Assembly: GCF_016097555.1 (NCBI RefSeq)
Contig: NC_054706.1
Location: 54,334,009-54,398,008 of the forward strand
From: Gigantopelta aegis
Taxonomy: Eukaryota; Mollusca; Gastropoda; Neomphalida; Peltospiridae
DNA: 64,000 nucleotides
Direction: 5' to 3'
In this document: positions 16,030-62,100 of the stretch, piece after piece
Position numbering within the stretch: position 1 is the stretch's first letter
Layout: every line of letters starts with the position of its first letter
Notes under the pieces: model-generated
Told to the model about the DNA's origin: nothing
Databases searched by the model: none
Seen by the model: the letters and a program-made list of their open reading frames with translations, nothing else
Translations under genes and position numbers: made by a program

Positions 16030-16123
16030 TACAGTGCAGACATGACCTGGTCGACCCGGATAATCTAGTTGGGTCAGGAAACTGGGTCTGAACATTATCG
16101 TTCTTATGCTATCAGTTGCAAAG

Positions 16124-19100
16124 ATGTCGTCCTCTGTTCCCGCGACAATGAAAGCTCTCGTGAAGGAGAAAGAGAGCGAGTCTTACATATACAAGGAAAT
16201 CCCCGTACCCGACCCTCAGGAGGACGAAGTGTTGATTCGAGTGGACTGTGTTGCGATCTGTGGCTCCGACATAAACCTGTACAAGTGGAACGACATCGCA
16301 CGGGTAATCGCGTCAATTCCATTCGTTCCGGGACACGAGTGCGCGGGTACCGTGGTCAAATGCGGGCCTAAAGCAAGTCTACCTTTGGGGTCAAAAGTGG
16401 GAGTCGAGAATCACTTTTTTTGCGGTTCGTGTTACCAGTGCAAGTTCGACAACCCTGCAATATGCCGCAACATGGGACAGTTCGGTCATGGGAAACTGAC
16501 ACAACACGGGGGCTGTTCGGAGTACTCGATCGTGCAACAAAAGTACCTGTATCAGTTGAAAAGAGACCTGAGTAAGTCTAGTTTTGAATGTTGTTTTTTT
16601 CTCTCTTTTTTTTTCTACTCATTATACATGTTGAACTAGAATACAAAATTTAGGGGCAGATGCTGAATTGTCCTAGGAAGGTGGTGCAACTTAAGGGCAC
16701 TTATAAAATACTTCGGCGGAAGTCGACACCTATAGGTAGGGCCTACTCATGACAGGCATGCGTTCCAGCAGGTTGCTCAGAATGTGCACATAAAACCCTT
16801 TGACCTGACCTGACCTGACCTGACCTGACCTAATGTTCCAAGGTACACTACAGTAATATGAATTTTATTTAAAAAATAAAATACACACCAGTAGTTTCCG
16901 AAGTACGTACTCACCCTCTCCCTCTCTCTCTCTCTCTCTAATAACTATAGGGTCAGCGGCGTTAGGTTATCACCGTCTCCCACCTGAATTTTCTGCGTTC
17001 AATGGGGTGCGCAACTGCTCCCCTAGTGCTGGAGCAAAACTTCAAATTGAGGCAAATATTACTCAGATATTCGGGCAAAATATGCTAGCCAGAGACCTTT
17101 TTACCATCTATTCCAAAATTAGATGTAATCCATGTTTAAAAACAAAACAAAAAAAACAACCCTGATGATTCGTTTGCAGTTTGGTAGTAATGCGAATATG
17201 AATAAATGAAGAGTTTAAGCGCAAAACGCGATATATCCATTTTTGATTTTCAGTAAAAATAAATTTTTTAATTGGCGTATATCGCGTTTTGATAAATAAT
17301 AATTAAAAAAACCCCAAAAAACCCCCGGGATTTACCCAATACAATTTCATAAGAATCAATCACGTTTTGCTGCAAATCAGCAGGCCTACGATTAGCCCGT
17401 ACTGACATACAATAATGGCTTTAACTAAAAACTAGAAAGAAAATGGTTTATATCGCGTTTGCGCCTGAACTCTTCAAATGTTGTCATCCAGATTCGGGCA
17501 TTTTCGTTTAATTCTGCCCAACCCCACCCCCTACAAAAATGGGAGCCCATACGCCTATGCATCCCAGAATCCTTTGAATTGCAGTTGTTTTTCAAAACAT
17601 GTTTAAACATTTAAAACAAAATAAATTAACAATGTGAAGAAAAAGGTTTAAGATGATGAACTAAAGTATAGTACCTTTAAGTAAGTATATATAACTGCGA
17701 TAGATACTCACCTCAGGTCTGTACCCAGACCTCAGTAACTGGGAGGGAGGTGTGTGTGTGTGGGGGTGGGGGGACAATAAAAAAAAGGTGATTCGGACAT
17801 TAATGTATAATATTATGATCTTTATCCGGACAAACTAGGCATCTTTAAACTTAAAAAGAGCTACCTTTTTCATAAGCAACATCCCCCACCCCACCCCACC
17901 CCACCCCACCCACCCCACCCCACCCACTGGGCACGCTCCTACATCTGGGCTTAAATGGCTCCTGTCATATATACCAAGTGAGGACCGTGTGAACGATATA
18001 TATGAAGTGGGTGCAAAGGCAGATCCAAGGACATGTTCCCTGAGCTCCCCATCTACAAAATTAAATAGCCCTATTTAATCAATTTCATTTAAGTGCCCTT
18101 TTCAGAGAGTTGGTTCATGTACCCATTTGTCCTTGGTCACTTCCCTAAAATATTTCCTGGGTGGGGTACATCCATAAAAGGATGGGTGGATGGGGCCACA
18201 AACACATTTTAAAATAACAGAACCAAAAAGAAGAAGAAAAAATATGTTTTAGGCATCAAGTGGGAAAGCGCAAATTTTATGGGCAGATGCTGAATTTCTC
18301 TAGAAAGGTGGTGCAACCTTAAAAAGGGCAGTTCTTAAATATTCCAAAGTACACCAATAGCAGTAACATTTATTTTAACTCCGCGATTCTAGCGGCCATG
18401 CAAAGTGTAATGTCAGTAAGATGTGGTTTTGATCGGATTGATTAGTATTGCAACACGTGATAGGCAATACGTATAGACTAATAGGGCCTCCAAGAGTCCA
18501 AAATATTGGACTCGAGTACTCGAGGGTCAAATTTGACCCGGACCCAAGTACCCTACACTTACGCTAGATGATAATGAGACTAAGGAATAAAGTAAAATAG
18601 CAATGCTGTTAGATCTACTGGTAGACCAGTAGAGCTAATTTTAATCAGACTGTAAATGAGAGTGACCTTCCTTAAACGAGTACTCGAGTCCAGTGAACGG
18701 ACACAAGTCTTGCTCGACTCGGCCCGTGTCCGAGTACTAGAGTACTTGTGAAGACCCTATAGGCTAGCATCGTGTATCTAAACTCATAGGGTTAATATAC
18801 ACATATATAAAATAGGACATGTATATAGTTCACATAATGTTATATTTTACAGCCCCTGAAGAAATAGCCATGCTTGAGCCACTGGGGGTGTCCCACAATG
18901 CTATTGAGAAGCTAGAAGTAAAAGACGAAGAGGTTTTAGTCATAGGCTGTGGACCAGTCGGCCTGCTGGCTCAAGCGGTAGCGAAAGCTCTTGGTGCCAA
19001 AAGGTGATTTTTATGTTATATGCACTGGCCTAGGAAGGGGGGAGGTGGGGGGGGGGGCAAGGGGCATATGCCCCCCACTTTTCAGATATTTTGCTTTATA

Positions 19101-23220: not shown

Positions 23221-25850
23221 TCTTTTTTTTCTCTCTTTTTGTTTTCTTTCTTTTTTTTTTATTCAAATTTTTATTCGGAGCTTCAAACACATATTATTAC
23301 AGTACATAATGAAATGTTACATTTTCTGTTAAAACACAGTTATTAATACAAGAAGATATGTATTACATGTGAAGTACTCTACTGAGATATTGCCACTTTT
23401 TTCTTATTTTACTAGCTTTTTCCGGGGGATAAAGATAAAGAGAATACAATTCAATCTGCTTATAACGACGTATGTTGGCTAAACATGAAATATAATTTAG
23501 CTGAGTTTTTTCATTCTACAAATATGTATATAGTATTTTATTAAAAGCAAACAAAGATTGATAATATCAATATTTGGACTATTAATAAAAAGACCAAACA
23601 GAAGTACCTCAGTGGCATTAGGTATGACAGTGCCGCATTTTACATTTAGGTCATCTAGGAAGCAATACCAAATAGTTTTAACATACTGACATTCAACAAA
23701 TAAATGAACTAGAGTTTCTTTAGTATCACCACAAAATGTACATAATTTAGTTTCAAAAAGTTTGCATTGCATCAGCTTACTGTTAGTATAGTATATTCGG
23801 TGATTAATTTTGAACTGAAAAGATTGTAATTTCGCATCGTCAGTTATAAACATTTTCCCAATTGATCCCTTTATTTAATTTTTGTTGTGATTTAATTGGT
23901 TTTCCGTTTATTTTATCAATGAAAAGCTTGTAAAATGGCTTTGTTACTTTCTCGTGGTTTTTTTTAGAAGATTTACATTCGAATTGTGTATTTTATGTAA
24001 TTTATTAAAATTATTAAATCTAAGTGTGTGTTTCCATTCATTTGGTATTGCATCCAAAAGTCCATAATACTGTAAATAATTTACATTCAGTTGATAAAAC
24101 CTACAAAAATCCTCATAAGTAAAACAATTACCTTTATTATTTATCAGATCATTAACAAAATAGATGTTTTTTGTACACCAAGAATTATTAAAAAAAACAC
24201 TGACTTATTGTTTATTTTAATACATGGATTAAACCGTAGAGGCTGAGATAGAATGTCTTGTGGGGTTGTGGTGGGGTTTTGTTGAACTTCAGCCCAACAT
24301 GAAAATGCATCCTGCCAAAATTGATTAAATCTAGATATTACTTTCCTATAGCAGTCCTTATGTCAAAATAAAATTTTGTCTCCTCCCAGATCCTCCAAAT
24401 CATCAAGGAGGCTCTTCCAGGCAGATAAATTAAAAGGATCAACGAGTTTTTTTAACCATGATATTTTTAACGCACAAGAGAAAGACATAATATGAGGTAT
24501 TTACAGGCCACCTTTTTCATATTCCTTTATAAGTACATTTCTTTTAACTTTATCAATTTTTCCATTCCATATAAAGTTAAATAGTGTGGACTGTAATTCT
24601 TTTAAATAATGAAGTGGTGGATCTGGGAGGACTGTCAAGATTTGAATTAAAATTGGTAATGCCAGTGATTTTATTACAGTTGCTTTTCCAATTATAGATA
24701 TATTTCTGAAAGACCAATCGTTTAAGAGGTTTTTTTAAAAGATTGACATTTATTCCTAAAATTCTCAGAATAGTTGTCAACTTGCATTACGTTGTATTTA
24801 ATACCGAGAAGTTTAAATTTGCCATCATGATTCCATATAAAAAAAAATTATTTGTGTTGTATTCCACACTACAACCTCGTCTTGCCCCAATCCATATAGC
24901 TTGTGTTTTATCAAAATGTGCTCTCAGACCAGAACAGGCAGCCAATTTGTCTACTAAAAGAAGTGCGCTATTCAGTGACTGTTCCGTGTCGTCCAACATA
25001 AGGGATGTATCATCAGCATATTGCGTGATAAGATATTCTGTATTATTAATTTTAATTCCATTAATATTGGGGTCGTATTTTAACGCTGCACTTAAAACTT
25101 CAACTGCTATTATGAATAAATATGGTGACAGTGGGTCGCCTTGTCTGACCCCCCTTTCTATTGGAAAAAAAAGGGGACAAATGTCCATTATTTAGTATGC
25201 AACTCGAAACATCACCATAAAAAGTATTATTGAAACACTGGGCAATGGACGGACCAAGACCAATGAACCGTAAAACATGTTTAATAAAAGACCATTCTAA
25301 AGAATCAAAAGCTTTTTCAAAATCTAAAAGAAGAAGAATTCCAGGAATTTCTTCGTCCTCTATTTCTTTTTTTTCTTTTTTTTTCTTTTTTTGGAGTAAA
25401 TCCATAATTAACCTAGTACATTCTCCAATATATCGATTTTTCATAAAACCATGTTGTGTTTCAGTAATTATATTACTTAAAATACTTGTAATTCGATTAG
25501 CAATTGCTGCAGATGCAATTTTATAATCAACATTGAGTAGAGATATAGGACGCCAATTTTTCAAATAGTATTTGGGTTTTCCTTCTTTTGGGATACAAAT
25601 AATTATTCCCTGCTTTTGTGTTACGGACAAACTTTCATGTTCATAACCATAGTTTAAAGAACGTATCATATATACATGTAAATCTCGCCAAAAAACCTTG
25701 TAAAATTCAGTAGTAAAACCATCAAGACCAGGAGATTTACCATTTTTCATATTTTTCAATGAAATTCTACATTCTGCGTACGTTAATAATCTTTCTAATT
25801 TATCACTTTTGTCTTTGTCTAAAAAATTATCATACTCCATTGACAGGAAT
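23221..25850 (-). mobile_element. 5'-truncated LINE, L1/Tx1-like reverse transcriptase
   Basis: On the minus strand from 25840 the protein starts near MEYDNFLDKDKSDKLERLLT and shows reverse-transcriptase blocks: KSPGLDGFTTEFYKVFW, WRPISLLNVDYKI, LLLDFEKAFDSLEW, then RQGDPLSPYLF and the catalytic YADD. The far end has a C-terminal CTFCGDTKETLVHLFVEC motif. The blocks fall in three frames (25840-25100, 25188-24787, 23853-23497), with disruptions near 25150 and through 24000-24780, so it is inactive. The GLDGFTTEFYK style and the C-terminal motif point to the L1/Tx1 group. The A-rich tail is at 23221-23265 (as T on the plus strand). The endonuclease part is absent. Confidence 0.9.
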
Positions 25851-30114: not shown

Positions 30115-45108
<14,994 letters not shown>

Positions 45109-59100: not shown

Positions 59101-62100
59101 TCCTATCACATTGATTGTTTATAAATGGGCAATAAGAAAAAACAACATATCATCATATGATTATTAAATTATTAAAGACAATATATGAATCCACATTGAA
59201 TATAATAGCCATTGGTGTAGAACGAAATACATTGTGTAAGAGGCCATTTAACATATAAGTTAACTCTAATCACTGAATTTGTTTTTACAAAGTGGTATCT
59301 TCATCATTACTAATTCTGGTCAAATGACACTAGCCAATAATCCCTCATATATTAATAACACCAATGAAGTTAGGGTTAACAATAAAGCACATGTACTGTA
59401 CATGCAAAAGGAATTACTTACTCTGGGTCACACTGAATAGACATGTAAGATGTATATTCCAATCAATTCATGTGAAAAATAAACTGAACTTAAAACAAAT
59501 TCACTTCAATAACAAGGACACACATTCCATATTCTATAGTCTGTCCCATTATTCTATAAACATATTTTTGGTAAATAATTTCAGTTAGGTGTGAAGTAAG
59601 AAGAAAAGTAAAAGTGTTTTTTTTTTGGTTTTTACAAAATTGTATACATGTGCAATTTACAAGTCAATCGGCTCAGAAATAAACAACTTGTTCAGGGCTG
59701 CAGATAGTACTCGCCCGCTCGCCAAATGGGAGTAAAAATTCTTACGGACAATTTAAAAAATCAACTACCAGCCTGACAGTCTATCTCGTATCTGTCTGTT
59801 TTTATTTCATTTGACACATGATTTTGATCATTTACCAAGTGTTATTAATGTTTTGTCAATATATCTATATATTTCATTTGAAGTGAAGACACTTTATATT
59901 ACAATATTGTTAATAATATACAGTATTGTTCTATAGACTGGGGGACTAGTACAAATTATGGTGGGCTAGTAAATTTTAGCTGGTTCTGGTCCGGTGGGCT
60001 AGCTAAATATTTTCCATTTATACATCCCTATTTGTAGTAAATTCCGTAGTATGAAAAAAGACTTTCCCTGTGGGACAGACTATAGATTATAACCATGTGA
60101 CCTAAATTGACGAACACTGAAATTTCCAAGGACAAAACATATGCAATTTTTGGTTGGCTGCCATTTTACTTCTTTTTTTTTTTACAGAATACTCGTCAAG
60201 AGAGGTGAAAGCTTTCAAAATAAATAAGTAATGAATCTGACTTCCTGATGATTACTATATATACTGTAGCTCATGTCATTGTTAGACTACCTCATATCTC
60301 TCAACCCCTCACTCCTCTTGAAGAGTATTCCATAAAAATGCATAAAGGCAGACAAAAAAAATGTGCATACATGTGTTTTGCCATAGGAAATTTCAGTGTT
60401 CGTCAATTTTGGTGATTATTCATGCATTCTACCATATTTTATAGCACCAGGGGTGCAGAAATGGAAAATATTTCACCAGCCCGTTGGACCAGAATCAATT
60501 AAAATTTATTAGCCCATCAGCCTATAGATAGAGAATAATACATGAGTGGCAGTTAGATACCATTTATATCACAAGTTGTTTTAAAATTATCTAACGAGTA
60601 AAAGCGAATGTCAGGTTAACTATACATCACAGTCTAATCAATTTCCATCAAGTAGTTTTTCATTTAACCTTCTGAGTACTGCAGGCGAAATATCTTGCCC
60701 GATGTCACGTCAGTCGACATACTGTATACAGTGCATTCCCCAATTCATATTTCCCACCGTTTTGCACACGACACTCACCGGAAACGAAATATAATAAAAG
60801 AATTTTTTTTTTTTTTCAAAATGGTGGCTTTTGTTTTCATTTTGGTATAATATCCGCCCGGTCCCCTCCATTATTATTTTTAGTTAGGATTGAGGGTTAG
60901 GGTTAGGGTTGGGGTTGGGGTTATGGCTGGGGTTAGGGCTAGGGTTGGAGTTAAGGTTAGGGTTAGGGTTAGGGGAAGGGGGGACCGGGTGGATATTTTT
61001 CCTTGATTTTTTCAATTGAAAATACCTTGAAATTTTGAGTTCACAACATGTTTTTCGGCAAGTATTTTCGCTTGACAACAATGGCGGCATGTCGCGGTCA
61101 TTTTCAGGGATCGATAGCTGATTGTGACAGCTAATTTGATGATAAATTTGATTGTTTTACCAACAACAAAAATCACCAAATATTGCAATATGAATTGTAG
61201 TTCGGGTTTTAAAAAACATTCTGGTCAGAAAATCACCGTTATCGGGAATACTTGACATAAATACTGGACAGCTGGCCACAAATTCCCGTAAGTAAACGCA
61301 ACTTTTTCGATTTTTTGCCTAATTTTAATCACCATTAGCTGATCTAAAAATAATAAAAATTACAAAAACCCACGAAGATAATACTTACCGATTCATATGT
61401 GAACTTTATTTCATGTATTTATAAAATATTTAAGTGAATATATGTGAGTAAAAATTATAAACTTGTTAAAAATTAATCCAGTTGTCTAAAGGTTAAGGTA
61501 TGACATTGGTGACCTGATCATCACCTAGGAGCAGCCAGCCATACAGGTAATTAAAAATAATGAATGATGTTCTCACCAACGGGTGTGCAAGAAAACAATA
61601 TATTAATTATAATTTTTTAACAATATCTCTATAACACACCCCCCAAAGTCGGTTGAGTGCTTGCTCGAGGTGCTTGCGTCGCAGGATCAGATCACCTCGA
61701 TGGATCAACTGATTAGGGTTTTTCACATTTCAACCAGTGCACAAAGGCTGTGGTATGTGCTTTCCTGTCTGTGGGAAAGTGCATATAAAAGATCCCTTTC
61801 TGCATTAGGAAAAATATAGTGGGTTTCCTCTGATAACTGTGTCAGAATGACCAAATGTTTGACATCAATGTGCTTCAGTAGTGTCGTTAAACAAAACAAA
61901 AAAATTAATGGTACATGTAAGAACTGAGTCAGCTTGTACAATAACAAACATTTTAGTTTTTGTACCAGATACTGAGAGGCAAAATAAGGAGTTGGTATTT
62001 CTCAAGGGAATGAGGACCTCGAGGTCACGCAGATACTCTCCTTTAATTTTGACCCAGCGAGAATACTGCATTTGATTGAGCTGATAGGTGATGTGTGGGT

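Follow-up and report, generated by a model that had tools for sequence, protein, structure and literature searches.

Interstitial TTAGGG tracts are often interpreted as traces of a former fusion of chromosomes or of the repair of a break. Is the TTAGGG-type array that lies in a 64,000-nt stretch of the genome of Gigantopelta aegis (NC_054706.1 of GCF_016097555.1, positions 54,334,009 to 54,398,008 of the forward strand; hereafter the window) such a scar, or was it carried to its present place? A first-pass annotation of this DNA had described the array as lying between inverted ends, inside a piggyBac-like copy whose sister lacks the insert, and had read it as a mobile unit that disperses telomere-like DNA and not as the product of a fusion or of simple end-joining.

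The array was found to belong to a complete element of 159 bp at 60844–61002 on the + strand, delimited by ends that are constant in 40 copies and by an empty site in the sister of its host element. The ends have the form GG(TATA/AAAA)ATATCCGCCCGGTCCCC, are inverted and enclose a degenerate TTAGGG array. The left terminal inverted repeat (23 bp, GGTATA type, 60844–60866, + strand) contains the exact 17-bp core, and the right one (23 bp, GGAAAA type, 60980–61002, − strand) contains the core with one mismatch; these true ends, GGTATA... and ...TTTTCC, lie 6 bp beyond the 17-mer given in the first-pass annotation and agree with its coordinates. The left repeat is followed by a fixed segment, TCCATTATTATTTTTAGTT (60867–60885, + strand), which was present with at most 4 mismatches in 37 of the 41 rows of paired ends described below, and then by the hexamer array itself, which has its G-rich strand on the + strand. 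Tandem Repeats Finder placed the array at 60883–60974, with 15.2 copies of a GTTAGG unit and 77% matches, and a regular-expression count gave 13 hexamer-like units, six of them exact TTAGGG. By reading, the element holds nothing but the array and so has no transposase of its own; the 90-codon stop-to-stop frame that crosses it is translated array. As single-stranded DNA it is predicted to fold by pairing of its ends (z −3.1). The element is flanked by an 8-bp target duplication, TTCATTTT on the left (60836–60843, + strand) and TTGATTTT on the right (61003–61010, + strand), with one mismatch between the two.

The insertion lies within a TTAA-flanked host element, which by reading of the sequence spans 60668–61492 on the + strand. 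The sister of this host at 30634–31322 (− strand) does lack the insert, as had been claimed: the target TTGATTTT is present there once, unoccupied, as AAAATCAA at 31139–31146 (− strand). The unoccupied host junction had 895 matches in the genome at up to 3 mismatches, and its reversed control had none. The hallmarks of piggyBac are a TTAA target and CCYT-type ends, and by reading both copies of the host in the window have TTAA on each side and the ends CCTTCTGAG and CCTTTAGAC; the label "piggyBac-like" therefore seems reasonable for the host. It does not extend to the carrier of the array, for which piggyBac is ruled out by 8-bp duplications of varied sequence, not TTAA, and which has a link to Merlin-type transposases.

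Other features were seen in the window. Frames that by eye resemble a Tc1-type transposase (34050–34993, − strand), a reverse transcriptase (24787–25849, − strand) and a zinc-type alcohol or sorbitol dehydrogenase exon (16064–16639, + strand) are present, and a 29-bp unit is repeated in tandem at 1690–2211 in eighteen copies with 98% matches.

The number of such elements was evaluated by searching the genome (1,149,253,464 bases or 1.149 Gb, in 5,216 contigs; contigs and loci are denoted by C and L numbers). The search for further inverted ends that the first-pass annotation had proposed gave many: the 17-bp core had 843 exact matches (427 + 416), and the 36-mer made of this core and the fixed left segment had 475 matches at up to 3 mismatches, with no match of the control in either case. 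The copies examined were 20 with exact ends on C1 and C2, together with 22 loci with one exact end. A script that paired ends at up to 3 mismatches each, run over all loci collected and the window copy, yielded 44 unique end pairs, 41 of which enclosed at least 4 hexamer-like units; the pairs set aside were L094 and L100, with short arrays, and L096, with a different interior. The 41 rows represent 40 copies, as one row of 331 bp is an artefact, a wider pairing of another L026 row, and the 40 copies include L003 and L108, which are a single insertion found at two places. Across the 40 array-bearing copies the ends were constant and the array length variable: the element started with GGTATA in 37 of the 41 rows and finished with TTTTCC in 36, and its length ranged from 93 to 225 bp, the artefact row aside.

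Target duplications were scanned for in the 41 rows at offsets of 4–8 bp and lengths of 6–10 bp. An 8-bp duplication with at most one mismatch was found at the GG...CC boundary in 20 of the 41 rows (20 of the 40 copies), perfect in 18. The same scan found none in the artefact row or in the remaining 20 copies, which make up the other 21 rows. When left flanks were compared with the right flanks of other copies in 200 shuffles, the mean number of such duplications was 0.095 and the maximum was 2. The family therefore has the features of miniature inverted-repeat transposable elements (MITEs), being short, transposase-free and present in many copies, with terminal inverted repeats and a duplication of fixed 8-bp length.

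Among the 22 loci with one exact end, L090, L092, L097, L101 and L105 had no acceptable mate, and the sole candidate mate at L093 had 5 mismatches. At L090 and L092 the left end and the array are present and the right end is missing. The TTAGGG-type hexamers behind the left end of L090 (C1:18801800–18804900) run on for several hundred bases with no recognised right end, and this locus is an overgrown or truncated copy. Different interiors lie behind the family end at L097 and L105, and the end at L101 runs into a transposase. It was also seen that the Merlin-type end opens onto interiors without a hexamer array at L096, L097, L105 and the first L026 end, and therefore the family of ends is broader than the array carriers.

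The composition of the arrays bears on whether they travel with the element. Over the 41 rows, 281 of the 507 scored units were TTAGGG, 100 were TTGGGG and 33 were TTAAGG, and the longest pure TTAGGG run per row ranged from 1 to 16 units, with at least 3 units in 21 rows. The variant block GGTTATGGCTGGGG was common to 10 of the 41 rows, all ten of which had different flanks. Because variant hexamers are common to unrelated sites, the array moves with the element, and the recurrence of variant blocks at such sites points to their descent from shared source copies. Loci L003 (C1) and L108 (C2) are identical at 2168 of 2199 aligned bases, both flanks included, and they are therefore a single insertion that was duplicated along with its surroundings. 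The element is 93 bp long at L003 and 117 bp at L108, a net difference of 24 bp or four hexamers, and so the length of the array changes without transposition. Past mobility, inheritance of the array and change of its length in place are thus established, the mobility being known from sequence signs of past transposition and not from direct observation.

To what extent this family accounts for TTAGGG tracts elsewhere was estimated with a (TTAGGG)5 query (INTERSTITIAL), which had 262 + 299 overlapping matches in the genome, with none for the control. The 100 matches listed span all of C1 and C2 and C3 as far as 46 Mb, and after merging they leave C1 with 7 arrays, C2 with 16 and C3 with 10 (to 46 Mb). 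All 7 arrays on C1 adjoin an exact family end. On C2 a family end was found at 11 of 16, by exact ends at 8 and by mismatched ends at 3 (L111, 1 mismatch; L113, 4; L112, 3). The total for C1 and C2 is 18 of 23 arrays with at least one family end; arrays elsewhere are thus not always end-less, an outcome that would have told against the first-pass reading. As for the other five arrays on C2, L116 belongs to a second inverted-repeat family, the array at L114 is enclosed by different inverted stretches, and L109, L110 and L115 have neither a family end nor other inverted ends within the 301–401 bp examined. On C3, a family end was found at 3 of the 10 arrays among the matches listed; the other 7 are unclassified, and therefore the share on C1 and C2 is not to be projected genome-wide and may not hold elsewhere in the genome. 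No (TTAGGG)5 match was found at either end of C1, and therefore chromosome-end telomeres are seemingly absent from at least this contig. The net effect is that most of the (TTAGGG)5 arrays on C1 and C2 were placed by transposition, and not by fusion or by telomerase acting at each site.

A tract made separately at each site, either through telomerase or through telomeric filler in double-strand-break repair, as in mammalian short interstitial telomeric sequences, has a published precedent in telomerase-linked insertion at breaks (Nergadze 2007), and L109, L110 and L115, without inverted ends in the stretches examined, could be tracts of this kind. As an account of the family it is highly improbable in view of the constant ends, the 8-bp duplications and the variant hexamers common to unrelated sites. 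For the window copy it is contradicted by the empty site and the end structure, and a fusion scar or break-repair filler is ruled out there by the ends, the duplication, the empty site and the array variants common to other copies; the first-pass rejection of fusion and simple end-joining therefore stands.

The origin of the ends was evaluated by looking for a transposase behind them. Merlin/IS1016 elements make an 8- or 9-bp target duplication, and duplications of 8 bp were found here. At locus L101 on C2, an exact 17-bp end is followed about 0.5 kb inward by a match to DDE_Tnp_IS1595 (36.3 bits in one scan and 38.9 bits in another, for which the cut-off was 27). One of the three L101 frames tested in Pfam matched PF12762 and the others were unmatched; the transposase reading is split between frames, so that this copy seems to be either broken or interrupted by an intron. 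A query of 931 bases from the L101 end to the transposase had 42 matches, the best relatives being on C12 (98%) and C10 (77%). The C10 relative has at the homologous place GGTATAATATCCGCCCGGTCCCC, which is identical over 23 bp to the left end of the MITE, whereas the C12 and C11 relatives had no such end within the 131 bp examined of each. When 60 bases from the C10 end were used as a query, matches at 86–90% were obtained in 14 other places. These include the array-bearing copies L024 and L012, which align with the C10 end over 46–49 bp (87 and 86%), so that the likeness extends past the inverted repeat. An IS1595-type transposase is thus found beside one family end at two loci, on C2 and C10. 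A search of L101, L120, L121 and L122 for the far end of the transposase-bearing element, covering about 1.9 kb from the near end, did not find it; this distance is greater than the mean length given for three curated bivalve Merlin elements, 1,635 bp. Positions 1–361 of L120 are a different repeat.

These results suggest that the array MITE is Merlin-derived, which is likely, not proven. A MITE of non-Merlin origin, from hAT or from some other superfamily that makes 8-bp duplications, to which the IS1595 link came by chance or by later nesting, would also fit the duplication length, as 8-bp duplications are common to hAT; a transposase-bearing element with two ends was not recovered, and only 1 of 10 PF12762 matches on C1 and C2 had an exact end nearby. 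Against this, it was homology to L101 that led to the C10 relative, whose end at the homologous place is identical over 23 bp, and the likeness to MITE copies continues past the inverted repeat, so a non-Merlin origin seems to us quite unlikely. As for hAT in particular, its ends begin with CAGNG, and although the family has its 8-bp duplication length, hAT is ruled out by ends that start with GG (GGTATA in 37 of 41 rows, GGAAAA in 36 of 41).

Whether the hexamers are telomeric in origin is a separate matter. A short seed inside the MITE may have grown by slippage, its likeness to TTAGGG being coincidental; 281 of 507 units are TTAGGG, the rest being variants such as TTGGGG and TTAAGG, and array length does change in place. 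This explanation is plausible but falls short of probable, because pure TTAGGG runs reach 16 units and because TTAGGG units also adjoin an end in a second family, whose ends are unlike those of the first. In the second family, L116 (C2:40112450–40112820) has inverted ends GG(T/A)AGGACTTTCCTTTGGCACTGTCA, and about ten TTAGGG units adjoin one of them. Its junction GGGTTAGTGACAGTGCCAAAGGAAAG had 649 genome matches and the longer junction TTAGGGTTAGGGTTAGTGACAGTGCCAAAGG had 467, each at up to 3 mismatches and with a control of zero, and the copies in L035, L058, L099 and L102 have about two or three TTAGGG units. That two families with unlike ends have TTAGGG beside an end is the best hint, though from few copies examined, that the capture or favouring of telomeric sequence is a recurrent event. 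It was also observed that array-bearing MITE copies lie at or near second-family copies in L099 and L102, an adjacency that suggests nesting. At L114 (C2:14579420–14579800), a short TTAGGG array lies between inverted GGACATTTGCCCCCC and GGGGGGCAAATGTCC, which recur several times locally, and this locus is possibly a third carrier.

The TTAGGG tract might be more than a passenger: telomerase or filler at excision breaks might give birth to such MITEs, or the G-rich tract might aid transposition or persistence, through binding of telomere proteins or folding into G-quadruplexes. We consider such an active part rather unlikely; if it were real, telomeric DNA would spread through these chromosomes mainly by way of MITEs.

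Taken together, these results indicate that the window feature is very probably a copy of a high-copy, non-autonomous cut-and-paste transposon, a MITE with TTAGGG cargo that likely files under Merlin. It is MITE cargo and not a fusion scar because of the constant ends, the 8-bp duplications, the empty site and the hundreds of end copies, and the proposal of a mobile unit dispersing telomere-like DNA is supported by the target duplications and the empty site. In the mechanism we propose, a Merlin-type transposase supplied in trans would recognise the 23-bp ends, excise the unit and reinsert it with an 8-bp duplication. The ancestor would have been a Merlin element that was mostly lost, with a short TTAGGG tract ending up between the two ends, and slippage would later have expanded and contracted the tract.

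Most (TTAGGG)5 tracts on C1 and C2 are transposon cargo and are therefore uninformative on fusions. The family offers a countable test of the spread of telomeric repeats by mobile elements, and its many independent copies make hexamer gain and loss measurable away from telomeres. The Merlin/IS1016 superfamily and its MITEs are said to have been described by Feschotte in 2004. The present family resembles them in its 8-bp duplication and in an end common to loci with an IS1595-type DDE domain, and it differs in that its interior is a TTAGGG-type array and that a complete two-ended parent was not recovered. Like other interstitial telomeric sequences (ITSs), its arrays are short TTAGGG tracts distant from chromosome ends. 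Inverted ends and 8-bp duplications are reportedly not part of the break-repair model, and both are present in this family. A break-repair ITS would be an end-less tract that is new at each site, and ends, duplications and common variants were found instead. The likeness to that class is that TTAGGG units are inserted at internal sites, and telomerase action at breaks has been described (Nergadze 2007).

Transposition by mobile elements is listed as a possible ITS route by Aksenova and Mirkin (2019), whose review cites tracts flanked by mobile elements, whereas here the tract is inside the mobile unit. A mussel study describes dispersed interstitial TTAGGG signals in FISH, with long arrays absent from the assembly, and short MITE-borne arrays may be one candidate cause of such signals. 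A full-text literature search, with most subscription papers outside its scope, gave no report of a TTAGGG-carrying MITE among the papers listed. Tandem-repeat MITEs are already known, and the telomeric cargo is apparently new within the literature searched. MITEs with hitchhiking tandem repeats reportedly include the (GTCY)n MITEs of insects (Coates 2011), the Xenopus MITE repeats (Hikosaka and Kawahara 2004) and the tandem-repeat MITEs of Donax (Satovic and Plohl 2013). The present family is like these in that a tandem array is carried inside a MITE and spreads along with it, and differs from them in its repeat unit, TTAGGG, which is the common telomere motif of animals.
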